Shown here in pieces: positions 12,523 to 44,222 of a stretch of DNA of 64,000 nt (position 1 is the first letter of the stretch; every line of letters starts with the position of its first letter). Made by a program: the position numbers and the translations under genes. The notes below the pieces were generated by a model. That model worked only from the letters and a program-made list of their open reading frames with translations. It had not been told where the DNA came from and searched no databases. Origin of the DNA: an uncultured Erysipelotrichaceae bacterium (GTDB taxonomy: Bacteria > Bacillota_I > Bacilli_A > RFN20 > CAG-826); assembly GCA_947166565.1 (NCBI GenBank), contig CAMVEL010000004.1, positions 1-64,000 of the forward strand. The letters run 5' to 3'.

Positions 12523-12561
12523 TTTAGGAAAACAATACGCCGGTGTCCGGCCATAGCCCCC

Positions 12562-12631
12562 TTGAAAGGGTCCGGTCCTTGACGTATAGTTTAGATGAGC
12601 TTTTTGGACCGGTTATTCACCGGCCCTTTTT
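12562..12631 (+). promoter_or_regulatory. Promoter-like and switchable hairpin element after the MATE gene
   Basis: TTGAAA 12562-12567, 17-nt spacer, TATAGT 12585-12590. A terminator-like hairpin follows: stem 12606-12613 with 12619-12626 (one mismatch), loop of 5, then T5 at 12627-12631. CCGGTCC at 12572-12578 is the exact complement of GGACCGG at 12606-12612, so an RNA coming from upstream could form either of two exclusive stems, as in an attenuator. The simplest reading is the terminator of the MATE transcript. Confidence 0.5.
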
Positions 12632-12858
12632 CTCACCTACGGGGGAAGAGCGTTCCTAAGATAAGGAGGGCCGCGAGCAGGATCCTTAGCGCCGCTTTCG
12701 CGAGCGCCTTGGCCCTTACTTTCGACCCGTGTCTTTTGGACACGCCGCCTTCCTCCTTTCCTCCCGCGCCTAGGGTACGTTTCCCAGGGGGCTTCGCGCG
12801 GATTGATGAAGATAGAGGGAATCCAAAGGATAACCATTTGGTTTTTTCCTCCTACTAA
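12595..12858. other. GC-rich structured segment with overlapping open frames
   Basis: This part of the 575-nt gap between the MATE gene and rplK is much richer in G+C than its surroundings. The plus strand has an 87-codon frame starting 4 nt after TATAGT. The minus strand has a 66-codon frame from ATG 12837 with AGGAGG 10 nt upstream, plus the 36-codon frame above. On the minus strand a hairpin closed by a GAAA tetraloop (about 12711-12693) and a perfect 6-bp CGTGTC/GACACG hairpin (12744-12728) suggest structured RNA. I do not recognise RNase P, SRP, tmRNA or 6S signatures. Between 12860 and 12960 I see only AT-rich sequence. Confidence 0.4.
12633..12743 (-). CDS. Possible 36-residue basic membrane peptide
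   Basis: Minus strand GTG at 12743 to TGA at 12635-12633. AAAGGAGG lies 8 nt before the GTG. The product has a lysine/arginine-rich N-terminal half and a leucine/alanine-rich hydrophobic C-terminal half ending in two arginines, which looks like a small membrane-associated peptide. The DNA is GC-rich, and other frames on both strands are open, so coding is uncertain. Confidence 0.3.
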   Translation of the reverse strand: MSKRHGSKVRAKALAKAALRILLAALLILGTLFPRR

Positions 12859-12966
12859 CTAATAGTGATTTTTTCTTGAATTTGGCTCAGATTTTTGAAA
12901 AATATTTTTCCAAAACGGCTTTTTTGCATTACCAACCTTTAGGTTGAAGTTTTTGATAAAAAATCC

Positions 12967-28842: not shown

Positions 28843-30042
28843 ATGGCAAAAGAAAAATTCAACCGCGACCGCGTCCATCTTAACGTTGGTACCATCGGTC
28901 ACGTCGACCACGGCAAGACCACCCTTACCGCGGCCATCACCCACGTTCTCCACCTCATTAATCCAAAGGTTAAGGATATGGCTTATGCCAATATCGATGC
29001 TACCCCAGAAGAGAGGAAGCGTGGTATCACCATCAACTCCGCTCACATCGAGTACGAGACCGAAAAGCGTCACTACGCTCACGTCGACTGCCCGGGGCAC
29101 GCCGACTACATCAAGAACATGATCACCGGCGCCGCTCAGATGGACGCCGCGATCCTTGTCGTCGCCGCTTCTGAAGGTGTTATGCCTCAGACCCGTGAGC
29201 ACGTCCTTCTCGCCCGTCAGGTCGGTGTTCCTCAGATCATCGTCTTCCTTAACAAGTGCGACCAGGTCGACAACGACGAAGAACTCATCGAGCTCGTCGA
29301 GATGGATGTCCGTGAGCTTCTCAACAAATACGAATTCCCTGGTGACGAAGTCCCAGTCATTCGTGGCTCCGCCCTTCTCGCTGGTCAGGTCACCGATGCC
29401 AACGATCCAAACGCCAAATGCATCATCGACCTTCTCAACGCTCTCGACACCTATATCCCTGATCCAGAGCGCAACATGGACAAGCCATTCCTTCTCCCGA
29501 TCGAAGACGTCATGACCATCTCTGGTCGTGGTACCGTCGTCACCGGCCGTGTCGAGCGTGGCACCATCAAACTCAACGACGCTGCTGAAATCGTTGGTAT
29601 CCGTCCAACCCAGAGCACCGTCGTCACCGGTCTTGAAATGTTCCGTAAGACCCTTGAATCCGCCTTCGGCGGCGACAACATCGGCGCTCTTCTCCGTGGT
29701 ATCACCCATGACCAGGTCGAGCGTGGACAAGTCCTTGCCAAGCCAGGATCCATCGTCCCACACGACAAATTCACTGCCACCACCTATATCCTTAAGAAAG
29801 AAGAAGGCGGACGTCATACCCACTTCCTTAACGGCTATCGTCCACAATTCTTCTTCCACACCACCGACATCACCGGCACGATCACCCTTCCTGCCGGAGT
29901 CGATATGGTTATGCCTGGCGACCACGTCACCTTCAACGTTGAGTTGATCCACCCGATCGCCATGGAAAAGGGAACCCAGTTCTCCATCCGTGAAGGCGGC
30001 CGCACCGTTGGTGCCGGCACCGTCGCCGAAGTTCTTCATTGA
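28843..30042 (+). CDS. tuf: Elongation factor Tu
   Basis: 399 residues with [14 protein letters not shown] (G1), DCPGHADY (G3), NKCDQVD (G4), and the C-terminal barrel ending [12 protein letters not shown]-like. It delivers aminoacyl-tRNA to the ribosome. Strong AGGAGG, its own promoter, and a strong terminator. Dense use of optimal codons (ATC, CTC, GTC, CGT) shows the expression bias of this genome. Confidence 0.98.
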
Positions 30043-30074
30043 TCTTCGTCCGTAACGGGCATAAGCTGAATTCC

Positions 30075-30100
30075 AAAGCCCCGTGAAAGCGGGGCTTTTT
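30075..30100 (+). terminator. tuf terminator
   Basis: AAAGCCCCG (30075-30083), loop TGAAAG, CGGGGCTTT (30090-30098) followed by more T. Confidence 0.95.
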
Positions 30101-30190
30101 CCGTTTTTATGAATCTATCGACCAAGCGACTATTGCGTTAAAAAAAAGATATATAATAAAAACGCGAATCGGAGGAGTTAAATTGTATTT

Positions 30191-30715
30191 ATGAAGAAAT
30201 ATGCTTTTTTGCTCTTACTCCCGTTATTTCTATCTTCCTGCGGATCCTCTAGCGAGATAACAACGGAAGACATCTCACCCGTCACGGGCACCTTTTGCTT
30301 AGGAAGGACCGACTCGAATTCATTGAAACTTGATTCCTCTGCGACATTAACGATCAAAGATGATAAGACCTATACCCTCAAGGTGGACGATAAAACCTAT
30401 GGGAGTTATTTCCATATCGCCAAAGTGAAGCAGGCCTATATAGATGAAGGCAACAACGCGGAGCCCATCAAGGAGAAAGAAGGGGTCATGGAAATCAATT
30501 CCATCTCCTTTTCAAGCTGCGCGGAGAATCTTCCTGATCCCTTAGGAAAATCCTTCTCCGAGAACGCGGCCATAAACCAATGCCTATTCCATTACCTTAA
30601 CGGCCATCATGATTCCGTGGGATATGATTGCTCCATCGTCCGTTATGGAAGAAGCAACACGACTAACGAAGGACCTCATATCGAGGAGGGAATGGCCTTT
30701 TATCGGATTGATTAG
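30191..30715 (+). CDS. Small lipoprotein of unknown function
   Basis: 174 residues. The signal sequence ends in FLSSC (cysteine near 17), a lipobox. The mature part is short and beta-rich with two further cysteines and no domain I recognise. GGAGGAG sits 13 nt before the ATG, somewhat far. A TATAAT (30152-30157) lies upstream without a well-spaced -35. Single gene between tuf and the first subtilase cassette. Confidence 0.72.
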   Translation: MKKYAFLLLLPLFLSSCGSSSEITTEDISPVTGTFCLGRTDSNSLKLDSSATLTIKDDKTYTLKVDDKTYGSYFHIAKVKQAYIDEGNNAEPIKEKEGVMEINSISFSSCAENLPDPLGKSFSENAAINQCLFHYLNGHHDSVGYDCSIVRYGRSNTTNEGPHIEEGMAFYRID

Positions 30716-30856
30716 ACTTAACGTCCGTTTGGCAAATCGCGGACATCCCATTTCTTTTACTGATGCAAATTGAAAAGGTTAACAAGGCTTTTCCAAAGAG
30801 ATTTCGTGGTGCCCAGTAAATAACATTTAGTAAGAGGTTTTTTATTATTCCTACGC

Positions 30857-30885
30857 TTGTTTGGCCCAAGGTTTCTTACTATTAT
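30857..30885 (+). promoter_or_regulatory. Leaderless promoter of subtilase cassette 1
   Basis: TTGTTT 30857-30862, 17-nt spacer, TATTAT 30880-30885, then exactly 6 nt to the ATG at 30892. No Shine-Dalgarno. Confidence 0.75.
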
Positions 30886-30891
30886 TTAGTT

Positions 30892-33204
30892 ATGAATAAA
30901 AAACTTTCCCGTTGGTTTGTAGCGATGTCGTTTGTCTTTGCTTTTTTCTTATGTTTTTCACCATCAACCAACACAAAGAACGTATCTCTAAATAGCGTTG
31001 ACGAGAGAAGTTGTTCTTTTGCTCATGAAGGAGAGGTCAAGAGAGAAGTTCTTCCCGAAGATTTGTTTTCGATAGGAAATGCTTGGGGGATGGTTGGCTA
31101 TAATAGGTCTGTTCCGGCTACCGGAGCCGGGATTAAAGTAGGCGTCATTGAAAATGCGATTGTCGGAGCCTCGGGATCGTTTGCTGATTTCTCGTGTCAT
31201 GGGCAATATTTTTCGTATCCATATTCAGAAGCGGAAGCAAATGAGGTAAATCATGCGTGGAAAGTACTGTCTATACTTGGTGGAAATAAAGGAATAGCAG
31301 AAGACATTTCTTTGTCGCTGGTTTCGCGTTCCTCTTACAGCTTTGAAGATTGCATTGATTGGTTAATTAACGTTGAACAAGTCGATATCATTTCATCGTC
31401 CACTGGTTCTAATCAATATTCTGGAGAATACTCAACCGCTAGATCAAATTATTTGGATAGAATCGTTAGGGAAAGCGGTGTATTGATAGTTGAAGCCATA
31501 GGAAACACGAATGAAGTTTCGCTTGCCACGATGGATTCCCTTGCCCACAACGTCCTGTCCGTCGGGGCCTGCGACAAAGAAGGGAATTCTTGTGACAATT
31601 TCAATGCATATGGAACACATCCTGCATACGACGACAAGGTCTTCGGTGTCAAACTCCTCGCTCCAGGAGAATCGCTATATGGGATACCAGGGCTGTTAGA
31701 TGATCAACTCCTCTATCCTGACGAAATCAAAGACGCTGAAAAGAAGATTTCCGGTACGAGCTTCGCCACCCCGATGGTGGCCGGGATAGCCGCTTTGCTC
31801 ATGCAGGAATTCCCGTCGCTGAGGGGCCATCCCGAACTCATGATCCCGTTGCTTTGCAACACCGCGAGGCCCGCCGCAAACCAAACAACTGTCCCATCTT
31901 ATAGACAGGGTTTCGGCATAGTCGACTACCAAAGGGCCAGGTCGGCCGCCGCGGCGCTCTACTCGTCGCAGGTCGATGGGCAGAGCGAGCAGGGGGACGT
32001 GCTATATTCCGGGAGCGTGTCGCTCTCGCCGGGGGAGACGCTAAAGGCGGTGGCCGCGACCCAGTCCAACATGCCGGCCACGGTCGGCGAGGCCATGGAG
32101 CCGGCGGACATGGATTTCGCCAGGGCATCGATAAGGCTCCTCGATTCGTCCGGCCAGACGATCGCCCAGTCGACGTCGAAGGCGAACTCATCGTCCCTCT
32201 CCTACACGAACGGGCAGTCGTTCGCCTTCCTTTCCGTCGAGGTGTCCCTTTCCCACGCTTCGTCCTACGGCAGGCCCGAGAAGGTGGGGATCAGCGTATG
32301 GAAGGAGTCGGATCCCCCCGGCTCCATCTCGATAACGTCAGGGAACCAGCTAGACGGCCTTCCCGTCTTCTCCGTCTCCTTCCCCGAATACCTTGACAGC
32401 CCTACGTCCAACCTGAGGCTCGTCATAACCGACTACCATTCGGTCCCCGTCGCGACGAGGCAGTACCTGCACCACACGGACACGGTCCAGCTGACCGCGG
32501 CTGAATGGGCGGCGGTCATAGACCTCCTGGGCCGCGAATACTACGCCTACCTCTTCTGGAGCCAGCCCTCGGGATCAGGGCTCCCCAATTTCCTTTTCAG
32601 CAGGCAGGTGGTGCTCTACGAGCCTACCACGTTCTCATCCGCCGTGCAGCTGACGCCGTCCTCGTTCGGATTCGAGGAGCAGTATTTCTTCTACCAAAAG
32701 AACAAGACTCTCACGGTCGGCGGCCTCCAGATACAGACAAGCAGGCTCCGCTGCGGATACATTCAGGAACAGTACGTCAACCTGTCGCCGAAGAGGCAGG
32801 GGGCGGGCAGCGCCTTCCTTGAGCTGACGTTCGACGCGACAATCTATAGGTGGATGGTGGGGTTCACCATCTGGAAGGATCTGGAACTAACCGTTAGCGC
32901 CGGCGACACCGCGACGCTGTCGTACCTTTCGACCAACAACGTCTGGACGCCGTACCTCGACCTGCTTTCCGACGTTACCCTCCCCGAGAGGAGGTCGGAG
33001 GTCATCAGGATACAAAGCGGGACGCCGATCAGGGGGCTAAGGATCCAGGCCACATCCACCCAGGCCCCGACGAGGAACCTTGGCAGGCTCTGCGTCGACG
33101 ACATCGTCCTCTCGACCGACCAGAACGCCGGCGTCTTCATCACGGGAGACTACTATCCCGTGGTGGTCAGGGAGACTTTTAAAGCGGAGGTAAACCCATG
33201 GTAA
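30892..33204 (+). CDS. Secreted S8 (subtilisin-like) serine protease, copy 1
   Basis: 770 residues: signal peptide (about 1-25), a conserved pro-like stretch (REVLPEDLFSIGNAWGMVGYN), then an S8 fold. Catalytic histidine H121 (NHAWKV), oxyanion asparagine N205 (EAIGN) and serine S290 (GTSFATPMVAG) are present. The position of the usual aspartate reads VGVIE with E87. From about residue 292 to 747 the gene is GC-rich and identical in nucleotide sequence to copy 2; this part looks like beta-rich domains. The catalytic half is AT-richer and diverged from copy 2. Its stop overlaps the start of a lipoprotein gene. Confidence 0.88.
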   Translation: MNKKLSRWFVAMSFVFAFFLCFSPSTNTKNVSLNSVDERSCSFAHEGEVKREVLPEDLFSIGNAWGMVGYNRSVPATGAGIKVGVIENAIVGASGSFADFSCHGQYFSYPYSEAEANEVNHAWKVLSILGGNKGIAEDISLSLVSRSSYSFEDCIDWLINVEQVDIISSSTGSNQYSGEYSTARSNYLDRIVRESGVLIVEAIGNTNEVSLATMDSLAHNVLSVGACDKEGNSCDNFNAYGTHPAYDDKVFGVKLLAPGESLYGIPGLLDDQLLYPDEIKDAEKKISGTSFATPMVAGIAALLMQEFPSLRGHPELMIPLLCNTARPAANQTTVPSYRQGFGIVDYQRARSAAAALYSSQVDGQSEQGDVLYSGSVSLSPGETLKAVAATQSNMPATVGEAMEPADMDFARASIRLLDSSGQTIAQSTSKANSSSLSYTNGQSFAFLSVEVSLSHASSYGRPEKVGISVWKESDPPGSISITSGNQLDGLPVFSVSFPEYLDSPTSNLRLVITDYHSVPVATRQYLHHTDTVQLTAAEWAAVIDLLGREYYAYLFWSQPSGSGLPNFLFSRQVVLYEPTTFSSAVQLTPSSFGFEEQYFFYQKNKTLTVGGLQIQTSRLRCGYIQEQYVNLSPKRQGAGSAFLELTFDATIYRWMVGFTIWKDLELTVSAGDTATLSYLSTNNVWTPYLDLLSDVTLPERRSEVIRIQSGTPIRGLRIQATSTQAPTRNLGRLCVDDIVLSTDQNAGVFITGDYYPVVVRETFKAEVNPW
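31766..33133 (+). repeat. 1,368-bp direct repeat, copy 1
   Basis: Every position I compared matches 38379-39746 at a constant offset of 6,613 bp, and the encoded residues are identical. It covers the end of the catalytic domain and nearly all of the C-terminal region of the subtilase. G+C is clearly above the flanks. Sequence just outside is similar but diverged, so the edges look like those of a gene-conversion tract. Confidence 0.93.
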
Positions 33205-34118
33205 TAAAAAGGATTCTTATCCTTTCATCGATTCTATTCTTTTCCTGCTCTACCAATGTAGGGAGTGTTGAATCTACGTCTTCCGTTGTCTCACTTCCAA
33301 GCGATTCCGATCTTTCTTCTTCGACGTCAAGCGAGTCATCCTACGATTATTCCATTGATCATTTTGGCGCGGAGATATGTTTAGGCCATGGTCAAAAGAA
33401 AATCTCCTACATCCCTTTGGGGGTTACCGTTCAAATTACGTTTACTTCTTATAACAAGGACGGAAGGCGCGTTGATGTTTATTTAGACAAACTAAATACC
33501 ATATATGATGAAAACGAACTCGAAGTCGTTTCCCTTTCCGAACATTACATCGATCCTCGAGAAGAACAAAAAACCTATGAACTTATCTATACGTTGAAGA
33601 CGAAGGCGAAAACCGATAAGGCCTCTATAACCCTTTCCTATTCGGATTATTTTAGGGAGAAATACGATTTTAAGGTAATCGACGTTACTGCTGGGGTCTC
33701 CTTTTGCTCATTGATGGCCACGGAAAAATATTACGATAGAACCTTTTATGGCACCCATTACGATTATCCAAGCGACCTCTTTGTGGAAAAGGCTAACGAT
33801 TTAACCGAACTTAAGGCTATTGCGCGAAAATGGTTGTCGATTTCGCCACCAACGCTTCCTGATGGCTTTTTTAACGATAATTACATGGCGGTTATGTTCC
33901 TTTTCCATGCAGATTACGAAATCTTCTTAGACGGAGTATTCGAGGATGGCCAAGCAGTCGCGGTCTCGTTCATTCAAAAGGTCCATTCGAAGTTTTTCTG
34001 GGCTCCTTTGTTTCATTACGACCTCTATCACCATGGCGTTTTGTTTTTAGGGCTTCGCAGAGGCCTTGGTTATGCCGAATATGAGAATTTCTACGTTTAC
34101 CAGCCGATTGATCAATGA
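33198..34118 (+). CDS. Lipoprotein paired with subtilase copy 1
   Basis: 306 residues. The signal ends at FFSC (cysteine near 17), then a serine-rich linker (about 20-50) and a globular domain. The start ATG overlaps the subtilase stop (CCATGGTAA), with GGAGG about 7 nt upstream, so translation is coupled. It is a diverged paralogue of the lipoprotein at 39811: both share DYP-x2-[LF]FVE+AN, a KW-containing IARKW block and DNY-x-AV-x-FL. Function unknown; constant pairing suggests it binds substrate, tethers or restrains the protease. Confidence 0.82.
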   Translation: MVIKRILILSSILFFSCSTNVGSVESTSSVVSLPSDSDLSSSTSSESSYDYSIDHFGAEICLGHGQKKISYIPLGVTVQITFTSYNKDGRRVDVYLDKLNTIYDENELEVVSLSEHYIDPREEQKTYELIYTLKTKAKTDKASITLSYSDYFREKYDFKVIDVTAGVSFCSLMATEKYYDRTFYGTHYDYPSDLFVEKANDLTELKAIARKWLSISPPTLPDGFFNDNYMAVMFLFHADYEIFLDGVFEDGQAVAVSFIQKVHSKFFWAPLFHYDLYHHGVLFLGLRRGLGYAEYENFYVYQPIDQ

Positions 34119-34183
34119 AAATGGTATTTTAAACAGACATATTTAGTCGAATTAAATCTCGTTTTGTCTTACAATTCTTCCGT

Positions 34184-35368
34184 ATGGAAGAAAAAGAAGA
34201 GAAAAAACTATTGAACAACGCCCCCTTATCGAAGGTGATGATCGGCTATTTCGTCGATTTCCTGTTTTCCTTCGCGGTGATGACGATCTGCAGCATGACC
34301 GCGGCCCCGAAGATCGCTGATAGCTTCGGACTCCAAAACGAGGTCGATAAGCTGGAAGCCTTCGTCGATAACGCCCATTTCGCGAGGGTAAGCAGGGAGA
34401 ATGGATCCTTTAAGGCCGATCTCTATTATTATTCGCTTGATAACGAGGCAATCGACGCGGAAGGGAAGATCAGCAAATCCCTTGGGAAGGACGACGAGGC
34501 CTATATCGGGCTTTATCCCTTCCAAGCCTATTCCGACCTCGTCTATAGCCTCTATAGCAATTTCTATTACGAGAACGATGAGGCCGTGATCCTCACGATC
34601 GAAGGACAGAAGAAGCAGAAAAGCGAATTCGCCGATAAGAACGAATACCTCAAATTCGTCGGCGAGGAAGTCTTCCAGATAACCGAGGCCAAGACTTCGA
34701 TTTATTCCTTCGCGGTCAAAGACGATTCAAGCCCCGATTATTCCAAAAAGCCGGTTCTAAATCAGAATAACGAAACCGTGAAGAACCTCGAATCCGAGGA
34801 TGCTGCCAAGAAGAAAGAAGCGCTTGCCGCGATCAATTCGTTCTGGGTTGGCGAGAGCATGTCCGCCGCGGGGAATGGAATCTATGGGAAGGTCTTCTCA
34901 TCATTCTTCTATAATCAGCCCGTTTATCAGGAGGTCCTGGCGAAGGCGAACAATTACATCTATATGTCTAACCTCATCTTCAGGTTCGCCTCCCCCTTCA
35001 TTTTCTTCTTCCTGATCCCTCTTTTAATCCCTGAAGGAAGATCCATAGGAAGGTTGCTAGCAAAGACCAAGGTCCTTTCAAAAGACGGGGAGAAGGCTCC
35101 TAAGTGGCGCGTAGCGATCCATCAAGGCGTTATCCTTGCCTTCTGGCTCTCCGGCTTTATCCCGAACACCTATTTGTTCTATAGCCTCCTTGGATTGCTC
35201 TCATTCGCGGACGGCATGGTCATGATGGGATCGAAGGAAAACCGCACGGTCCACGAAAAGCTCGCGGGTACCACGACCGTTGAGCTTGAGCCGACCCTAG
35301 GCAAAAGGAAGATTGATAACAAAGACGTCATCGAAAACGAAGAAGCAGCAGAAGGCGACCCAAAATAA
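34184..35368 (+). CDS. RDD-like membrane protein with a large outside domain
   Basis: 394 residues. The first helix (about 17-42) contains GYFVDFLF, then about 220 residues rich in Y, N, D and K predicted outside, then helices near 260-285 and 305-345. The C-terminal part has GRSIGRLLAKTKVLSKDGEK and NRTVHEKLAGTTTV, which fit the RDD family pattern; RDD proteins normally lack the long insertion. Some RDD proteins are Na+/H+ antiporters, but most are unknown. A TACAAT (34170-34175) lies 8 nt before the ATG with no Shine-Dalgarno, probably leaderless. Confidence 0.72.
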   Translation: MEEKEEKKLLNNAPLSKVMIGYFVDFLFSFAVMTICSMTAAPKIADSFGLQNEVDKLEAFVDNAHFARVSRENGSFKADLYYYSLDNEAIDAEGKISKSLGKDDEAYIGLYPFQAYSDLVYSLYSNFYYENDEAVILTIEGQKKQKSEFADKNEYLKFVGEEVFQITEAKTSIYSFAVKDDSSPDYSKKPVLNQNNETVKNLESEDAAKKKEALAAINSFWVGESMSAAGNGIYGKVFSSFFYNQPVYQEVLAKANNYIYMSNLIFRFASPFIFFFLIPLLIPEGRSIGRLLAKTKVLSKDGEKAPKWRVAIHQGVILAFWLSGFIPNTYLFYSLLGLLSFADGMVMMGSKENRTVHEKLAGTTTVELEPTLGKRKIDNKDVIENEEAAEGDPK

Positions 35369-35388
35369 AAAAGACGCGTACGCGCGTC
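35367..35388 (-). terminator. Minus-strand terminator of the substrate-binding protein operon
   Basis: On the minus strand GACGCG-CGTA-CGCGTC (35388-35373) is followed by T6 (35372-35367). Confidence 0.85.
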
Positions 35389-35401
35389 AAAGACAATTAT
35401 T

Positions 35402-35428
35402 AACGAGAGACCTCATTCTCTCGTTTTA
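35402..35428 (+). terminator. Terminator of the RDD-like gene
   Basis: AACGAGAGA (35402-35410) pairs with TCTCTCGTT (35417-35425), followed by TTAATTT. It overlaps the last codons of the convergent gene. Confidence 0.75.
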
Positions 35429-35781
35429 ATTTGCTTGATGGCCTTATTATGGAGAATGAACCTGATTCCTCCAAAAACAAGGAAGAAGGCCCCTAGGGCA
35501 AAGCAAATCATCGAGACGATGAAGGCAAAGGAGAGGGGGTTAACAACGCCCTCTATCTTGTTGACCGAGACAAAGATGAAGGCGACCCCCAAAACAAGGA
35601 GGATCGGGGAGACCACCAAAAAGACGAGGTCATCGTCTTTCTTGGACTTAAGGGCGGAAAGGGCCTGACGCTTTTCCTCGTCTTGCTCATTTTCCCTGAC
35701 CTTCGTTGCAAAAGAAGTCCGCCCGGATTGCTCCGAGACGGACTCCTTAATGTTGTTTTTCCTTTCCTCGTTACCTTCCAT
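35413..35781 (-). CDS. Small two-helix membrane protein coupled to a substrate-binding protein
   Basis: 122 residues: a charged cytoplasmic N-terminal half (about 1-50, many E/K/R), two hydrophobic helices (about 53-72 and 83-107) and a short basic tail. No family recognised. Its ATG overlaps the stop of the upstream lipoprotein (TAATG), so the two are translationally coupled. It may be a membrane anchor or accessory for that transporter component. Confidence 0.72.
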   Translation of the reverse strand: MEGNEERKNNIKESVSEQSGRTSFATKVRENEQDEEKRQALSALKSKKDDDLVFLVVSPILLVLGVAFIFVSVNKIEGVVNPLSFAFIVSMICFALGAFFLVFGGIRFILHNKAIKQIKTRE

Positions 35782-37316
35782 TATTCGAGGATGTATTTCT
35801 TCGCGGCGGCGAATTGATCGTCGACGAGCTTCTTGATCTGCTCATCGGTGGTCGCGTTCACGTCATCGAAGAGGGCGGTGATCATGTTGTTGGCCGCGGT
35901 CCTTGCCTTATCGGAAAGGGAGAAGACGGGGCTCATGAAGTAGTTGCCGTTTTTGTTGTAGGCTTCGTCGAGATCGAAGACCTTGCCGCCATAGGCGTTC
36001 TTCTTGTCGGCATAGGAGGTCTCGTAGGTGATTTCCTTCTTCGCGGCTTCCCTGAGTTCCTTGACGGATTCGTCTTCAAGCGCGGACTTACGGACGGGGA
36101 AGTAGTTGGTCTTCACGGCCAAAGAAGCCGTATTGGCCTTGTTCGTGAGGAAATCGTAGAACTTAAGGCTCGCGGCCAATTCGTTCTTGTCTTTCTTGTT
36201 GAAGAAGGCGAGGGACGGTCCTTGGGAAATGACCTTCTTGGAAGAGGAGGCATCGAACTTAGGAACCTCGTTCCAGGAAACGGAATAGCCGTCTCCGGCC
36301 ATCCATGGGGCACCGGTCGTGGAGGCGATGATCGCAAAGCATTTGCCTTCCGCGAAGAGGTTGGACGGATAATCATGATATTGTCCGGACATGCGGAGGT
36401 TGTTCTTCGTGGCCAAAAGCCCTTCGTGGTTCCATTTGGTGAGTTGGACGGCGAGGTCCTTGGCCTTCTGATCGTTAACGAACTTAAGCGCGTTCACGGG
36501 ATTCTCGTCGTTGGTGACGAAGGGGATGCCCTTGGATTCGAGGAGGGTGATGAACATGTTCGCGGCATCCTCATAGATGACGGGGACGGCCTCGAAATTG
36601 CCGTCTTTCTTCTGACTCGCGAAGACTTCCGGATAATCTGTCTTCATGGTCTTGGCCAAATCCATAAGGCCTTCGAAGGAATCGACGTTAGCGTAGGCTT
36701 TCTTGGAGGCTCCGGCAACGGGGGCCACGTATTTGCCCGCATCGGCCCCGGCGGCTTCCCTAGCGCCCGCTTTCATGACCTCGGCGTTAAGCATGAGGGC
36801 TTCGGCAGATTTGGAATATGGAAGCGAATAGTATTTGTTGCCGTATTGGTTGATTTCGCTATCGAGGTAGCCTTTGTTGTAATCGCTATCGGCCTTGAGT
36901 GTCTCGGCATGGGCGGAGACATCGGCGATCGCGCCATCCTTGGCCCAACCATAGACATAGGTGCCGTAGGTCGTGACCATATTGGGGACGTCACCCGTCG
37001 GGATGCCTTTGGCAACCTCTTGGGAAACGCCATAATAATCGTTTTGCTTGGAGCCTTTGAAGACGAGTTTGACCTTGATCTTCGGGTTGGCCTTCATGAA
37101 TTCGTCGGCGACGCCTTTTGCATAATAATAAAGAGCGTAGTTCTTATTGTCGGAATCATCGTCAGGGGTCGGATCTTCCTGGTAGGTGTGCCACCAGGTG
37201 ATGGAACCTTCCCAATTCTCGTCCAATTCAACGTCTTTGTTTCCACCGCCGCAGGAAGCCAAAGAGGCGACCATGAGGAGGGACAAAGCGCATACTGTGG
37301 TTTTAAGTCCTTTCAT
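35781..37316 (-). CDS. ABC transporter substrate-binding lipoprotein (carbohydrate type)
   Basis: 511 residues. The lipobox is ASLASC (cysteine near 22) followed by glycines. The mature part starts ITWWHTYQED and continues in the pattern of family 1 solute-binding proteins; insertions of 20-40 residues (for example around a GAREAAGADAGK stretch) make it longer than usual. AAAGGAAG lies about 12 nt before the ATG. It is 3.5 kb away from the minus-strand permease-ATPase genes, which lack an adjacent binding protein; the second subtilase cassette lies between, as if it had been inserted there. Confidence 0.85.
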   Translation of the reverse strand: MKGLKTTVCALSLLMVASLASCGGGNKDVELDENWEGSITWWHTYQEDPTPDDDSDNKNYALYYYAKGVADEFMKANPKIKVKLVFKGSKQNDYYGVSQEVAKGIPTGDVPNMVTTYGTYVYGWAKDGAIADVSAHAETLKADSDYNKGYLDSEINQYGNKYYSLPYSKSAEALMLNAEVMKAGAREAAGADAGKYVAPVAGASKKAYANVDSFEGLMDLAKTMKTDYPEVFASQKKDGNFEAVPVIYEDAANMFITLLESKGIPFVTNDENPVNALKFVNDQKAKDLAVQLTKWNHEGLLATKNNLRMSGQYHDYPSNLFAEGKCFAIIASTTGAPWMAGDGYSVSWNEVPKFDASSSKKVISQGPSLAFFNKKDKNELAASLKFYDFLTNKANTASLAVKTNYFPVRKSALEDESVKELREAAKKEITYETSYADKKNAYGGKVFDLDEAYNKNGNYFMSPVFSLSDKARTAANNMITALFDDVNATTDEQIKKLVDDQFAAAKKYILE

Positions 37317-37347
37317 TTTGGGTTTCTTCCTTTCTTGAAACTAAGTA

Positions 37348-37390
37348 ATTGTAGCACTTTCAGGAATAAGGGTATCACCCTTTTATTCCT
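37348..37390 (-). promoter_or_regulatory. Promoter and operator-like repeat before the binding-protein gene
   Basis: Extended -10 TGC-TACAAT on the minus strand (37356-37348). Directly upstream, in place of a -35, is an inverted repeat AGGAATAAGGGT / ACCCttTTATTCCT (37362-37373 with 37377-37390, a 2-nt bulge). Such a position fits a repressor or activator site. Confidence 0.55.
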
Positions 37391-37445
37391 GTTTGTGGCG
37401 AAGAGGAGTAATAGGGAAGAAACGCGTTTATTGCATATAGCGATA

Positions 37446-37474
37446 TTGCCGAGATTTAGGCGTCTTTCTATAAT
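37446..37474 (+). promoter_or_regulatory. Leaderless promoter of subtilase cassette 2
   Basis: TTGCCG 37446-37451, 17-nt spacer, TATAAT 37469-37474, then 6 nt to ATG 37481. Same geometry as cassette 1. Confidence 0.8.
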
Positions 37475-37480
37475 GAAGGC

Positions 37481-39817
37481 ATGAATTCCTTTAAAGACAT
37501 GCTGTTAATTTGCATAGCCTGCTTGTGCTCCGCTTTTTTTCTTGGAAAAGATGGGGTTTCAAACAACGGCGATGCGGAAATAGTCGATCGAATAGATAAT
37601 TCCGATGCGGATATAGCCTTTGCATATGAAGGCCAAGTCAAGCGCGAAGTCCTCCCAGAGGATTTGTTTTCCATTGGGAACGCTTGGGGTATGGTCGGCT
37701 ACAATAGGTCTGTCCCGGCTACCGGCGCCGGCATCAAGGTCGGGATAATAGAAGGTGGAATCGTAGACCTTTCATCCTCGTTCAATGATTTTTCGTATTA
37801 CGGTCAGCCGTTCTCCTATCCGTATACCACCGAAGAGGCGAAATCGATGGAACACGCCCATAAAGTCGCGTCTATCTTGGGGGGCACGAAAGGGATAGCC
37901 CAAGACATATCGCTTGTTTTGGCGCGCCAAACAGATGGAAGCACAGGTTTTTTCGACTGCGTCTCCTATTTGATTGAGCAAGAACACGTCGATATCATTT
38001 CGTGCTCTTCTGGCTCTGATGTTAATTCGGGCGAATATTCATCACAGCGGTCTTGGGCTTTGGATAAAAAAATAAGAGAAAGCGGAGTTTTGTTTGTTCA
38101 GGCGATAGGGAATCATAAATCCACCGAAGTTAACTACGCAATATGCCAATCTTTAGCACACAATGTCCTTTCAGTCGGGGCCTGCGACAAAGAAGGGAAT
38201 TCTTGCGATGATTTCAACCGGTATGGAATAAAACCCGAATACGACGACAAGGTCCTCGGTGTCAAACTCCTCGCTCCGGGGAAGTCGTTATATGGGATAC
38301 CAGGGATACTAGATGATCAGCTCATTTATCATAGCGAGATTACAAACATTGAAGAAAAAATTAACGGAACGAGCTTCTCCACCCCGATGGTGGCCGGGAT
38401 AGCCGCTTTGCTCATGCAGGAATTCCCGTCGCTGAGGGGCCATCCCGAACTCATGATCCCGTTGCTTTGCAACACCGCGAGGCCCGCCGCAAACCAAACA
38501 ACTGTCCCATCTTATAGACAGGGTTTCGGCATAGTCGACTACCAAAGGGCCAGGTCGGCCGCCGCGGCGCTCTACTCGTCGCAGGTCGATGGGCAGAGCG
38601 AGCAGGGGGACGTGCTATATTCCGGGAGCGTGTCGCTCTCGCCGGGGGAGACGCTAAAGGCGGTGGCCGCGACCCAGTCCAACATGCCGGCCACGGTCGG
38701 CGAGGCCATGGAGCCGGCGGACATGGATTTCGCCAGGGCATCGATAAGGCTCCTCGATTCGTCCGGCCAGACGATCGCCCAGTCGACGTCGAAGGCGAAC
38801 TCATCGTCCCTCTCCTACACGAACGGGCAGTCGTTCGCCTTCCTTTCCGTCGAGGTGTCCCTTTCCCACGCTTCGTCCTACGGCAGGCCCGAGAAGGTGG
38901 GGATCAGCGTATGGAAGGAGTCGGATCCCCCCGGCTCCATCTCGATAACGTCAGGGAACCAGCTAGACGGCCTTCCCGTCTTCTCCGTCTCCTTCCCCGA
39001 ATACCTTGACAGCCCTACGTCCAACCTGAGGCTCGTCATAACCGACTACCATTCGGTCCCCGTCGCGACGAGGCAGTACCTGCACCACACGGACACGGTC
39101 CAGCTGACCGCGGCTGAATGGGCGGCGGTCATAGACCTCCTGGGCCGCGAATACTACGCCTACCTCTTCTGGAGCCAGCCCTCGGGATCAGGGCTCCCCA
39201 ATTTCCTTTTCAGCAGGCAGGTGGTGCTCTACGAGCCTACCACGTTCTCATCCGCCGTGCAGCTGACGCCGTCCTCGTTCGGATTCGAGGAGCAGTATTT
39301 CTTCTACCAAAAGAACAAGACTCTCACGGTCGGCGGCCTCCAGATACAGACAAGCAGGCTCCGCTGCGGATACATTCAGGAACAGTACGTCAACCTGTCG
39401 CCGAAGAGGCAGGGGGCGGGCAGCGCCTTCCTTGAGCTGACGTTCGACGCGACAATCTATAGGTGGATGGTGGGGTTCACCATCTGGAAGGATCTGGAAC
39501 TAACCGTTAGCGCCGGCGACACCGCGACGCTGTCGTACCTTTCGACCAACAACGTCTGGACGCCGTACCTCGACCTGCTTTCCGACGTTACCCTCCCCGA
39601 GAGGAGGTCGGAGGTCATCAGGATACAAAGCGGGACGCCGATCAGGGGGCTAAGGATCCAGGCCACATCCACCCAGGCCCCGACGAGGAACCTTGGCAGG
39701 CTCTGCGTCGACGACATCGTCCTCTCGACCGACCAGAACGCCGGCGCCTTCATCACGGGAGGCTACTATCCAGTTGTGGTCAGGGAATCTTTCAGAGCGG
39801 AGGTAAACCCATGGTAA
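37481..39817 (+). CDS. Secreted S8 (subtilisin-like) serine protease, copy 2
   Basis: 778 residues with the same layout as copy 1: signal peptide (about 1-22), REVLPEDLFSIGNAWGMVGYN, then catalytic H125 (EHAHKV), N211 (QAIGN) and S298 (GTSFSTPMVAG). The usual catalytic aspartate position again reads a glutamate (VGIIE, E91). From about residue 300 the sequence is identical to copy 1 down to the nucleotide until residue about 755; the N-terminal half differs at many sites, including synonymous ones. Overlaps the following lipoprotein gene by 7 nt. Confidence 0.88.
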   Translation: MNSFKDMLLICIACLCSAFFLGKDGVSNNGDAEIVDRIDNSDADIAFAYEGQVKREVLPEDLFSIGNAWGMVGYNRSVPATGAGIKVGIIEGGIVDLSSSFNDFSYYGQPFSYPYTTEEAKSMEHAHKVASILGGTKGIAQDISLVLARQTDGSTGFFDCVSYLIEQEHVDIISCSSGSDVNSGEYSSQRSWALDKKIRESGVLFVQAIGNHKSTEVNYAICQSLAHNVLSVGACDKEGNSCDDFNRYGIKPEYDDKVLGVKLLAPGKSLYGIPGILDDQLIYHSEITNIEEKINGTSFSTPMVAGIAALLMQEFPSLRGHPELMIPLLCNTARPAANQTTVPSYRQGFGIVDYQRARSAAAALYSSQVDGQSEQGDVLYSGSVSLSPGETLKAVAATQSNMPATVGEAMEPADMDFARASIRLLDSSGQTIAQSTSKANSSSLSYTNGQSFAFLSVEVSLSHASSYGRPEKVGISVWKESDPPGSISITSGNQLDGLPVFSVSFPEYLDSPTSNLRLVITDYHSVPVATRQYLHHTDTVQLTAAEWAAVIDLLGREYYAYLFWSQPSGSGLPNFLFSRQVVLYEPTTFSSAVQLTPSSFGFEEQYFFYQKNKTLTVGGLQIQTSRLRCGYIQEQYVNLSPKRQGAGSAFLELTFDATIYRWMVGFTIWKDLELTVSAGDTATLSYLSTNNVWTPYLDLLSDVTLPERRSEVIRIQSGTPIRGLRIQATSTQAPTRNLGRLCVDDIVLSTDQNAGAFITGGYYPVVVRESFRAEVNPW
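38379..39746 (+). repeat. 1,368-bp direct repeat, copy 2
   Basis: Matches 31766-33133 at every position compared. Both copies lie in the same orientation, 5.2 kb apart, so recombination between them would delete or duplicate the intervening genes (lipoprotein, RDD-like protein, two-helix protein, binding protein). Confidence 0.93.
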
Positions 39818-40743
39818 TGAAAAGAGTTGCGTATTTTAGTTTTGCGTTGTTATTGGCGTGTTTTTCCTGCAATCCATCCACGACAGAGGCGCCTTCCGAA
39901 TATCATTCCACCGAGGGAAGCGAGATAGATGTTACTTCGTCCGATCCAGACCTCTTTTTGAAGATACCGAGTGGTTTTGAAGTCGCCATCGAGCCCTACC
40001 GCGAACACCCCCTCGGCTTCCTTCCGCTTGGTGCGACCGTCGATGTCGAAGTCAGGCCGTTTCTGACCGAGAACGGCCGTACGAGACATTATCTTGCCTT
40101 CTATGAGTTTTTCAGGATCGACTTTGGGCCGGAGACGACGGTCGTAAAAGACACCAACGACATCATAGCCACCGTCTTCAGCCCACAATACAAATACCAC
40201 GACGTCTCTCACTTTTCGTATTCCATCAAGGTTGAGAAAAAGGTCAGTTCCATCAAGGCCCACATAAGCTACATCGAGCCGTTCGAGTGGGATATCGAGA
40301 TACCTGTCTGTGATGTGGCTTCCAGCATGACCTCCTATTATTTGGACAAGGACGCGAGATATTCTCCACTCAATACAGGCGTTGATTATCCAAGGAACTT
40401 CTTCGTCGAGAGAGCCAACAGCCGTTCGGAACTAATTGACATCGCGCGCAAATGGTGCGTCAGTAAACTGCCGAAGTTCGATGATTCCGTCTTCGAGGAC
40501 AATTACGTAGCCGTGGCTTTCCTCTACGTGGACCCGGACCGCAGCCTACGCTTCGATTCGTCCTACGATTATGATGGGGCCTTCAACGCGGTCTTCATAC
40601 AAGAAATTCCGCCAAGCTATTTTATTGACGAACTTATGATTATGAGATCAAGAAACATCGGCATCTGCTATTTCACGATTAGAAGGGACCTTGGGTACAA
40701 CGAATACCTCTTTAAATGTATTGAGGTCCCCCTTCCGGAATAA
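39811..40743 (+). CDS. Lipoprotein paired with subtilase copy 2
   Basis: 310 residues. The signal sequence ends near ACFSC (cysteine about 20), followed by a short S/T/E-rich linker. Paralogue of the 33198 lipoprotein with weak overall identity but shared DYP...FFVERAN, IARKW, EDNYVAVAFLY and a final RRDLGYNEY block. Start overlaps the subtilase stop with a conserved GGAGGTAAACCC upstream. Unlike the protease C-termini, the two lipoproteins have not been homogenised, so they probably diversify with the variable catalytic halves. Confidence 0.82.
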   Translation: MVMKRVAYFSFALLLACFSCNPSTTEAPSEYHSTEGSEIDVTSSDPDLFLKIPSGFEVAIEPYREHPLGFLPLGATVDVEVRPFLTENGRTRHYLAFYEFFRIDFGPETTVVKDTNDIIATVFSPQYKYHDVSHFSYSIKVEKKVSSIKAHISYIEPFEWDIEIPVCDVASSMTSYYLDKDARYSPLNTGVDYPRNFFVERANSRSELIDIARKWCVSKLPKFDDSVFEDNYVAVAFLYVDPDRSLRFDSSYDYDGAFNAVFIQEIPPSYFIDELMIMRSRNIGICYFTIRRDLGYNEYLFKCIEVPLPE

Positions 40744-40860
40744 CAAACCAATTGATCGTACTATCCATATATTGTTTATGGATTTGTGGAAGAGCAAGAA
40801 GCAAAACAAAAGTCGATTGCGGTTTTATGATGTCCAAAAAGCGTTTTCGCTATGATGCCC

Positions 40861-41820
40861 CTATCCTTTTATGCCGGCTCGGCCCGTTCCGCGCATGATG
40901 TGCTTACGGAAGATGACGTAGATGATTAGGAATGGCACGACGGTCAGAACCGAGGCGGTCATCTGCCAGCTATATTGGGTGATGTAATTCCCGTCAGGCC
41001 CTTGCATCGTTAGGGCTCCCTTACGGATGATGACCGATATCAAGGTATCGGAATTGTTATAGACGACCAAAGAAGGCCATATGTATCCGTTCCATGAGGA
41101 GATGAAGGAGAGGATGGTGATCGTTATGAGGGTCGGGGAGGCAAGAGGGACCATGACCTTCCATAGGTATCCCCAGTCGGTTTTGCCGTCAATCTTTGCA
41201 GCAAGATAGAGTTCGTTTGGAATCTGAAGGAAGCTTTGCCTAAGCAAATAGATATAGAAGGAGCTTGCGATAAGAGGGATTATCATCGCGATAATCGCCT
41301 GGAATGTGGTTTGTTCCAAACCTGTCAAACCCAAATTCGATAGGGTAACATAATTGGAAATCGCGAGCAGTTCGCCTGGAATCATCATGGTGGCCAAGAA
41401 GGCGATGAAGAGGACGTCCCTTCCTTTGAAGGTAAGCCTAGCGAAGGCAAAGGCCGCGAGGATTGTCGTCAATAACTGCAAAACGGTGATTGAAGTAGCG
41501 ACCAACAAAGTTATGGCTACATGATGGAAATAGTTGAGACGTGTAAACGTTTCCGAATAGTTGTAAGCGATATTCTCCGCCAAAGAAGCGAATTCAGGGA
41601 TCATCCTTCCATTAAGGATTGAGCTTTCGTCCATGAACGAAGCAGCGATCATGTAATAGAAGGGGAAGAAAGCTAAGGCCGCGGCAAGGAAAAGGAAAAC
41701 ATAGGTAATGACTAGACCGACGATTTTCAATACACGGTCTCTCTTTCCTTGCTTGACGCTGTCCTTATCCCTATTAGGAATCACGAGGACTAGTTTGGTA
41801 TCGATAACATCTTTTCTCAT
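40861..41820 (-). CDS. ABC sugar-type permease (MalG/UgpE-like)
   Basis: 319 residues from ATG 41820; an earlier in-frame ATG at 41913 lies inside the preceding gene. Six hydrophobic segments and the cytoplasmic EAA loop (ELYLAAKIDGKTDWGYLWKVMVPLASPTL) that docks on the ATPase. The C-terminus GTGRAGIKG is shared with the homologue at 52328. It starts 1 nt after the stop of the partner permease. Followed by a tiny hairpin with T5 (AGCG-AAAA-CGCT, about 40842-40825). Confidence 0.9.
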   Translation of the reverse strand: MRKDVIDTKLVLVIPNRDKDSVKQGKRDRVLKIVGLVITYVFLFLAAALAFFPFYYMIAASFMDESSILNGRMIPEFASLAENIAYNYSETFTRLNYFHHVAITLLVATSITVLQLLTTILAAFAFARLTFKGRDVLFIAFLATMMIPGELLAISNYVTLSNLGLTGLEQTTFQAIIAMIIPLIASSFYIYLLRQSFLQIPNELYLAAKIDGKTDWGYLWKVMVPLASPTLITITILSFISSWNGYIWPSLVVYNNSDTLISVIIRKGALTMQGPDGNYITQYSWQMTASVLTVVPFLIIYVIFRKHIMRGTGRAGIKG

Positions 41821-41821
41821 A

Positions 41822-42772
41822 TCAATACACCACCAATCTCTTGGATATCCTAAGTTCCACAATGGTAAAACCAAGGATGACGAGCAAGAGGATGACTGCC
41901 GCCGCCGAAGCAAATTGCGAGGAAGTCGTCCAATTGGTTCCCTGCATCATATCGTAGATATAATAGACAATCGTATATAAATCGTTGGAGGAAGCGACCG
42001 CGGTTGAGGAATAGGAACGGTTGAGCAAACCGATGATGGAACTATATTCCTTGAAGGCGGTGATGAAACTCGTTACGGAGATATAGAGGATCTGCGGGGA
42101 AAGGAGGGGGATGATAATCCTTCTGCTGGCTTTGCCTTTGCTCGCCCCATCTACTCTAGCCGCGTCGAAATATTGTTGGTCTATGTTTTGGAGTCCCGAG
42201 AGGAAAATCAGAATCTTATAGGGAAGTGCGGTCCAAATGATATAGATGCATAAGACGGTCATACAGCTTCCCCACGTGGCATAAACCGGGTTTATCCAAG
42301 GGATATTGAGGTGGAAGATTGTGTTGAAGACGCCCCCGTTAGCGAAAATTACCGCGAATACCATGCCGATTGCGATGACGTTCGTGACATAGGGCATGAA
42401 GAAAACGGTTTGGAAAAATTTCTTTAAGGCTTTGATGTTATGGATTGCTAAGGCGATCAACAAGGCGATGATAACGGAAATCGGAACCGTCACGAAGGTG
42501 ATGAACATCGTATTCCAAAAAGCGCTTGGCCCCGAGAAGGAGAAGAAAGTCGTGTTATAAACACCGCTCCCTTCATAACGTTCCGCTAAACCTAGGATAT
42601 AGGCATAGTTATAAAAGGTGAAACCCTTATGGACGCCCGTTGAGACGTTGTAGTCTTTCAAAAACGAAACATAGACCGTATTAAGGATTGGGAAAAAGGT
42701 AAAAATCCCCATCAAGATGAGGACGGGGGCAAGATAGAACCACGCTTTGTAATTATTCCGTTTCTCGTCCAT
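41822..42772 (-). CDS. ABC sugar-type permease (MalF/UgpA-like)
   Basis: 316 residues with six hydrophobic segments (first at about 12-32) and an EAA loop near QQYFDAARVDGASKGKASRR. It should pair with the MalG-like permease next to it. Its start is 1 nt from the stop of the ATPase gene, so the three genes form a tight operon. Substrate not known; the family covers sugars, polyols and glycerophosphodiesters. Confidence 0.9.
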   Translation of the reverse strand: MDEKRNNYKAWFYLAPVLILMGIFTFFPILNTVYVSFLKDYNVSTGVHKGFTFYNYAYILGLAERYEGSGVYNTTFFSFSGPSAFWNTMFITFVTVPISVIIALLIALAIHNIKALKKFFQTVFFMPYVTNVIAIGMVFAVIFANGGVFNTIFHLNIPWINPVYATWGSCMTVLCIYIIWTALPYKILIFLSGLQNIDQQYFDAARVDGASKGKASRRIIIPLLSPQILYISVTSFITAFKEYSSIIGLLNRSYSSTAVASSNDLYTIVYYIYDMMQGTNWTTSSQFASAAAVILLLVILGFTIVELRISKRLVVY

Positions 42773-42773
42773 C

Positions 42774-44222
42774 CTAAATCTCTATTCTTTCTCCACTGAC
42801 GCTATCGAAGACATAGATTTTGTTTTTCCTTAGGGCGAATTTGATGGTCCCGGTTTTCGCTTCGATATCGGAATCGACGATCAATTTGATGGTCCCCTCC
42901 TCGGAATAAGGAGAAGTGCAATAAAGCTGAAGGTCCCTTCCTTGGGTGAGGACATTCGTGCATTCAAGGGTCAAAACCTTTTCCTTTCCTTCGGCCTCTT
43001 CCGCCATCAAAAAGCCTTCTGGTCTAATTCCCACCATGACTTTTTGATAAGGAATCGTTGGAGGGACATTCATGATTTTTTCTTCACCGATGAAAAGTCC
43101 GCCTTCTTTTATTTCGCCATAGAAGACGTTTATCGGGGGCGTGCCTAGGAATTTGGCGACGAAAAGGCAATTGGGGTTACGGTAGACTTCCTGTGGATGG
43201 CCGACTTGACGGACGAATCCTTTTTCCATGACGACGATTTGATCACAGATGGACATGGCCTCTTCTTGGTCATGGGTGACGAAGATCGTAGTAATGCCGG
43301 TTTCCTGCTGAATGCGGCGGATTTCCTCCCTTGTTTGGATACGGAGTCTAGCATCGAGGTTTGATAGCGGCTCATCGAGAAGGAGGACGCTTGGACGTTT
43401 GACAAGGGCACGGGCAATCGCGACGCGTTGTTGTTGTCCGCCTGAGAGTTCACTTGGCTTGCGATTGAGGAGGTTTTCGATTTGAACGAGTTTCGAAACC
43501 GCCCTAATTCGTGCGTCTTTCTCGGGTTTTGTTAGACTGCGTTCAATCTCCCTTGGGGAACCGTTGCGAAGGATTTCATAGGATTCGTTGACCGTTAAAC
43601 CCTTCATGGCCAGCTTATCGGTTTCCAGCTTCGATTTTTCTTCACTCCTTTTGATGGCTTCCTTGATTCTTTCCAGTCCGTTCTCACCATCTGGATCAAT
43701 CGAGATGATTTCCTTAGCCATATAGATGGAGGTCTCGAATTTCTCCGCGATGGCCCTTAATAAGGAAGTCAAAGTGTAGTCTTCTTTTCGTTTTTCGTTT
43801 TGGATAAGCGGCAATAAACCCCTGGAGGAAAGAATCTCCCTCCTTTTGGCCTCGCTTTCAAGGATAAGGTCCTTTTCGTTTTCCTTAACCTTGAGGTTAT
43901 CGAGAGGGAATTGGACGTTTTGGTAAACCGTTAGATGAGGGTAAAGCGCATAATTTTGGAAAACCAAACCAATCCCGCGTTTTTCCGGGGCCAAATCGGT
44001 GATGTTCTCATCGTTGAAATAGATGGAGCCGCTTGTTGGGGCCTTCAAGCCGGAAATGAGATAAAGGGTCGTGGATTTACCGCATCCCGATGGCCCAAGA
44101 AGGCCGATGAGTTCTCCGGAAGCAATCGTCAAATCCATATTGTTGACCGCGATTGTTTCGCTAACTTCTTTGCCTTTGACGTTTTTGAAGGACTTCGTTA
44201 ATTTGACTAGATTGATTTCCAT
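42774..44222 (-). CDS. ABC ATPase (MsmK/UgpC type) with ~120-residue insertion
   Basis: 482 residues. Walker [10 protein letters not shown] at 43-51, Q-loop FQNYALYPH near 88-96, signature LSGGQQQ at 259-265, Walker B and the VTHDQEEA switch follow, then a C-terminal regulatory (TOBE) domain. About 120 extra, charged, helical residues (about 113-232) separate the Q-loop and the signature, in the helical subdomain that contacts the permeases. Homologues in most bacteria lack this; mycoplasma UgpC-like ATPases have insertions at the same place. AGGA before the ATG; TATAAT at 44246-44241. Confidence 0.9.

Follow-up and report, generated by a model that had tools for sequence, protein, structure and literature searches.

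Probable recent gene conversion between two paralogous subtilase-lipoprotein cassettes of an uncultured Erysipelotrichaceae bacterium

How can two neighboring genes be identical over one half and close to synonymous saturation over the other? This question is raised by a window of 64,000 nt (assembly GCA_947166565.1, here called G000; contig CAMVEL010000004.1, positions 1 to 64,000) from an uncultured Erysipelotrichaceae bacterium. It carries, 6.6 kb apart and in direct orientation, two cassettes that each consist of a gene for an S8 (subtilase-fold) protein overlapping a lipoprotein gene. A first-pass annotation had reported that positions 31766–33133 and 38379–39746 (both on the + strand) do not differ at all, and by direct comparison the assembled sequence indeed has 0 mismatches over these 1,368 bp (offset 6613), with mismatches at 31765 and 33134 bounding the identical block. 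As will be seen below, the zero holds for the assembled letters and is less trustworthy as an exact count, since short-read assembly limits it. In our view the best reading of the locus, with a probability of roughly 0.7, is a recent ectopic gene conversion between the two paralogous cassettes, the second of which was inserted into an ABC transporter operon.

The first protein, P1 (30892–33204, + strand, 770 aa), and its paralog P2 (37481–39817, + strand, 778 aa) are secreted and match Pfam PF00082 (Peptidase_S8) with 98 and 115 bits, respectively, at a cut-off of 21.8. The structure model of P1 (pLDDT 70) aligns with the KP-43 protease (1wmd; Z 31.7, 364 residues aligned, rmsd 3.4; VIA-align, residues 61–471), a match that takes in the jelly-roll domain, and membership in S8 is thus backed by both the profile and the subtilisin fold. 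The catalytic-site residues are E87 (at the Asp position), H121, N205 and S290 in P1 and E91, H125 and S298 in P2; His121, Asn205 and Ser290 are invariant in an alignment of seven homologues. P1 and P2 lack the canonical Asp-His-Ser triad, as the catalytic aspartate is replaced by glutamate (Glu87, 31150–31152, and Glu91, 37751–37753), which also occupies this position in 6 of the 7 homologues and in 4 of the 5 full-length relatives. Sequence and model together characterize P1 and P2 as S8-fold proteins and putative proteases. Full-length relatives are 26–34% identical to P1, some match to its back part is present in 40 of 224 genomes, and a C-terminal module of ~160 residues recurs on otherwise different proteins in the genomes of the family. 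P1 and P2 may work as proteases that are secreted or exposed on the cell surface, binding through the C-terminal half common to both and each having its own specific front and partner.

These partners would be the lipoproteins LP1 (33198–34118, + strand, 306 aa), an open reading frame with a lipobox-like N-terminus, and LP2 (39811–40743, + strand, 310 aa), whose start codons overlap the ends of P1 and P2, respectively. Five members of the LP1 family could be aligned, and a Pfam search with the lipoproteins matched no family; matches of their fold to Ig-like S-layer or adhesin domains were not trusted, the model having a pLDDT of 55. Next to four full-length relatives of P1 a small lipoprotein is encoded. 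The lipoprotein is also found without a protease, e.g. in G036 (L250:1486–2400), where the order TrxR-LP-RapZ stands at the same syntenic place as TrxR-S8-LP-RapZ in G038, and in G120 (L251:381–2232), where lipoprotein genes lie in tandem; the pairing is therefore common, not obligatory.

The block corresponds to codons 292–747 of P1 and comprises the end of the catalytic domain, the jelly-roll domain and further beta domains. Over this length the two proteins are 99.8% identical and 0% of the fourfold sites differ. In the fronts, codons 61–150 are 69% identical at the protein level with 68% of the fourfold sites different, and codons 151–217 are 58% identical with 71% different, near the 75% of random sequence. 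Codons 218–291 (78% protein identity, 27% fourfold difference) and the last 23 codons, 748–770 (83% and 22%), are intermediate, and the paired lipoproteins LP1 and LP2 share 27% identity. The first-pass annotation was thus right that front halves and lipoproteins have diverged even at synonymous sites, and the gradual rise of identity that it described before the block is real: the repeat finder gives 85% identity between 31543–31842 and its P2 counterpart, and the portion preceding the block (31543–31765 in P1 and 38156–38378 in P2, both + strand) is a partly homogenised zone. At the right edge, identity decays across 72 bp up to the start codon of the lipoprotein gene. The left edge lies at the motif GTSFxTP, which holds the catalytic serine and is conserved more strongly than any other in the fold. 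As the block begins 2 residues past this serine, P1 and P2 each have a catalytic-domain front of their own and a common remainder. A search of the whole 1.85-Mb assembly, which the annotation had recommended, found two copies of the block only. The course of fourfold divergence, from 68–71% through 27% to 0% and back to 22% in the tail, supports the gene conversion that had been suspected from the start, with synonymous sites identical inside the block and saturated outside.

The second cassette appears to be a newcomer at its place. P2-LP2 lies between the permease 2 and substrate-binding protein genes of a sugar ABC operon on the minus strand; three relatives (G012, G025 and G014; loci L268, L269 and L270) have these two genes side by side at the orthologous place, and G000 and its sister MAG RUG266 (G017) have them split by the cassette on the opposite strand, so cassette 2 is an insertion. 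From the relatives without the cassette, the inserted segment is approximately 37392–40860 (+ strand), and the binding-protein gene has retained its leader at ~37317–37391, the cassette lying just upstream. No transposase, shared flanks or terminal repeats were recognised around cassette 2. We infer the following history: the insertion would predate the split of this strain from RUG266; the catalytic fronts and lipoproteins would then have diverged to synonymous saturation; and RecA-type ectopic conversion would have repeatedly homogenised the protease's back 60%, which extends from the catalytic-serine motif as far as the gene end, with tracts ending where homology grows too poor.

How far the identity can be taken literally depends on the assemblies, as both cassette-carrying genomes are short-read MAGs. 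Several contigs of G000 (C5, C10, C13, C18, C19, C21 and C29) share exact 55-bp overlaps at their ends. Such overlaps are typical of de Bruijn graphs built with k=55, so G000 was probably assembled in this way from short reads. Both copies of the block, a direct repeat with unique sequence in between, may therefore be one graph edge passed twice, from which isolated SNPs were removed. RUG266, in which we find both cassettes in the same order, was assembled from Illumina data with idba_ud or MEGAHIT (PMC5830445). Its block copies differ at 31861, 33037, 33058 and 33059, and contigs C130, C40 and C16 end inside the block at 31960/38573 and 32938/39551; four ends at two equivalent positions are what a collapsed repeat gives. 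Each end lies 99 bp inward of the outer differences, 31861 and 33037, between which the copies are identical for 1,175 bp at k ~100 (1,368 bp in G000). The default maximum k of idba_ud is 100. These isolated differences near the block edges mean that the two copies do mutate apart. They leave gaps of 96 and 75 bp, larger than 55 and smaller than 100, so that an assembler at k=55 would erase them and one at k=100 would not; 1,368 and 1,175 bp would then be what k=55 and k=100 yield from one underlying pair. In the 391 bp of the block that are readable in both MAGs, the copies of RUG266 show 4 differences, the P2 orthologs 5 and the P1 orthologs 1, and the copies of G000 show 0, a zero which may be an assembly effect. 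A SNP at 33081 (T in both copies of G000, C in both of RUG266) had been considered proof of concerted conversion and was withdrawn in view of the k=55 evidence.

An effect of assembly could be the chief cause of the exact identity, if a near-identical repeat collapsed to one graph edge that was used twice; we give this somewhat less than even odds. The 55-bp overlaps at the contig ends, and the 96- and 75-bp gaps that reproduce the lengths of 1,368 and 1,175 bp, speak for it. However, such an effect cannot create the repeat itself: each copy has unique flanks on both sides within one contig, the independent assembly breaks at the same repeat, and collapse requires long shared k-mers and hence presumably a true identity of ~98% or more. 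The effect thus concerns the number of differences and is compatible with conversion. The safe statement is a near-identity of roughly 98% or more, not zero differences. An assembly duplicate, which would have undone the finding, is excluded as an artefact of one assembly by the presence of the repeat in an independent MAG, in which the contigs break at this very repeat. A search of genome contigs for a close donor of the block gave only RUG266 and a 32% relative, and neither a strain with two diverged back halves nor a hybrid gene was found among the genomes examined. Elsewhere in the window, positions 12520–12908 have several 76–87% identical copies in the sister genome, and 54 bp of them (12733–12786) are part of an exact repeat within G000.

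The composition of the block poses a second question. As the first-pass annotation had stated, the block is GC-richer than its surroundings (0.62, compared with 0.495 for the window), and the contrast is sharper than described there. GC3, computed along both genes as the annotation had advised, is 0.39 in the front of P1 and about 0.50 (0.49–0.50) in that of P2, and rises to 0.84 in the block (median of the genome's genes 0.57; 99th percentile 0.75). A change-point fit places this step at 31756 in P1 and at 38369 in P2; in both genes the identity edge follows 10 bp later. On the other side, GC3 remains high for ~14 codons beyond the right edge, where the copies differ. In a comparison of 967 genes, taken from 1.6 Mb of the genome, P1, P2, an LRR gene and an Rhs gene have the four strongest GC3 steps; the next-strongest fall to dLL 33 and 19. 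The LRR gene, a giant BspA-type gene with near-identical tandem repeats that runs off a contig end (L122:1–8766, contig C18), goes from 0.47 to 0.85, the latter in its last 717 codons. The Rhs/YD-repeat gene (L128:5974–11475, C1:65974–71475) has a core GC3 of 0.88 and 0.44 in its last 217 codons; this step also occurs in Rhs genes from four relatives in the genus, and between core and tip it is known for Rhs (PMC2935791). The unconverted P1 homologues of five relatives lack a comparable step (dLL 1.4–5.3 vs 81 and 49). Inside the internal repeats of other genes GC3 was higher in 3 of 3, slightly in 2 (three genes only). Two near-identical 1.3-kb gene copies in contig C3 (L140:2291–3598 and L141:192–1499), which we presume may be an insertion sequence, have a GC3 of 0.61 and no GC excess.

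Within the block, codons ending in C and codons ending in G both contribute to the excess. Purines make up a share of 0.47 at fourfold sites (0.48 and 0.42 in the fronts; 0.33 vs 0.33 in the LRR gene) and ATA is kept at 0.42 of the Ile codons, as if only A-to-G and T-to-C changes had acted. Unlike the block, ordinary genes of the genus that are GC-rich have mostly C-ending codons and hardly any ATA, and a block-like pattern is found in Rhs cores and transposase-like genes. Translational codon selection was rejected as the cause, since the block is rich in GGG, GTG, AGG and TCG, codons that are rare in the rpoB/rpoC/EF genes.

One possible source, which we favor only tentatively, is a single import of the GC-rich back half from a GC-rich relative: recombination at the catalytic-serine motif would have placed it in one cassette, from which the other received a copy. 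Such an import would account for a step that is abrupt and lies no more than 10 bp from the identity edge, for the high GC3 some 14 codons past the right edge and for a codon pattern like that of transposase-like and Rhs genes. Against it, the search of genus, family, order and class genomes gave no donor above 36% identity, the value of the nearest homologue, and the block looks unlike the usual GC-rich genes in the genus. GC-biased gene conversion, a reading of the step that comes on top of conversion itself, could instead have raised the GC3 of the homogenised half; it has been proposed for bacteria (PMC4450053) and disputed (PMC8153448), and here we regard it as unlikely. In its favor, the four strongest steps include a tandem-repeat gene and an Rhs core beside P1 and P2, the five unconverted relatives have no comparable step, and the excess extends to codons avoided by rpoB/rpoC/EF genes, with a purine share at fourfold sites equal to that of the gene's own front. 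However, GC3 is not raised in the partly homogenised neighboring zone (0.51 in P1, 0.50 in P2), the step is abrupt, the codon pattern would also suit a GC-rich mobile gene pool, the two other internal-repeat genes differ only slightly, and the relatives yielded no further mosaic S8 pair. The broader proposition that paralog conversion is GC-biased, and that protease block, LRR array and Rhs core owe their GC3 of 0.84–0.88 to this bias, is about as unlikely. We hold import or another source to be somewhat more likely than GC-biased conversion. Of the annotation's explanation for composition, the GC excess stands, and its two proposed causes, foreign origin and biased conversion, are both candidates. 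The confidences of these readings overlap because both the assembly effect and the origin of the GC step can hold together with conversion.

A true competitor of conversion is a recent duplication of the whole cassette, after which one front and lipoprotein were replaced by homologous recombination from the diverged cassette of another strain; the identity of the block would then reflect its youth and not conversion. We consider this improbable. The left junction does lie in the most conserved motif, where a replacement would join, and the order and sequence of the cassettes are already common to RUG266. Still, replacements on both sides of one block would be needed, and the gradient through the intermediate zone 31543–31765 (27% of fourfold sites) and the tail (22%) fits several conversion tracts of different age better. 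Selection for a constant scaffold, which the first-pass annotation had offered as the alternative, explains constant protein and cannot explain, any more than chance can, the synonymous identity of a block whose surroundings are saturated.

The annotation's idea that the block could allow swapping of surface proteases finds no support, as the copies are direct repeats, between which crossing over would delete or duplicate 6.6 kb and not shuffle fronts, and no hybrid was seen. An invertible, shufflon-type antigenic switch was likewise discarded: it would need inverted repeats flanking exchangeable segments, and the block copies are direct repeats, with no inverted pairs of at least 40 nt in 29000–43000.

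The kind of event is already known. Its closest precedent are babA/babB and homA/homB of Helicobacter pylori, whose 3' segments are under concerted evolution while the 5' segments diverge (PMC3960876). P1 and P2 likewise are paralogous genes, presumably for surface proteins, with a diverged part and a near-identical part, the latter probably converted within the genome. They differ in being S8-fold proteases with partner lipoproteins, known from two MAGs, and not pathogen adhesins followed in many strains; the GC3 step at the block edge further sets them apart. With Rhs genes (PMC2935791) they share a GC-rich constant and an AT-rich variable part in one gene, and recombination over the shared part. 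However, in Rhs the constant part is N-terminal and the tips are exchanged, whereas in P1 and P2 it is C-terminal; a Pfam search detected no YD/RHS repeats in them and no displaced fronts were found. The dentilisin complex PrtP-PrcA-PrcB of Treponema denticola also couples a subtilisin-like protease with lipoproteins, but identity with PrtP was rejected, as NCBIfam denti_PrtP gives 20 bits where the cut-off is 300, and the lipoproteins here are without a Pfam match. The GC excess in translation-unfavoured codons of a recombining segment resembles what was reported for GC-biased conversion in bacteria (PMC4450053), evidence that consists of a correlation between GC and recombination across genes and clades; here it concerns one paralog pair in one genome.

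For work on MAGs the locus holds a caution, namely that exact repeat identity in short-read assemblies depends on the k-mer size of the assembler. The GC3 step at a tract edge offers a cheap test of whether bacterial gene conversion favors G and C, and if the GC-bias reading were true, this disputed process would be directly visible inside single bacterial genes. The finding would bring a rumen Erysipelotrichaceae-type bacterium and its protease-lipoprotein pairs into the set of known examples in which gene conversion keeps paralogous surface genes alike at one end.
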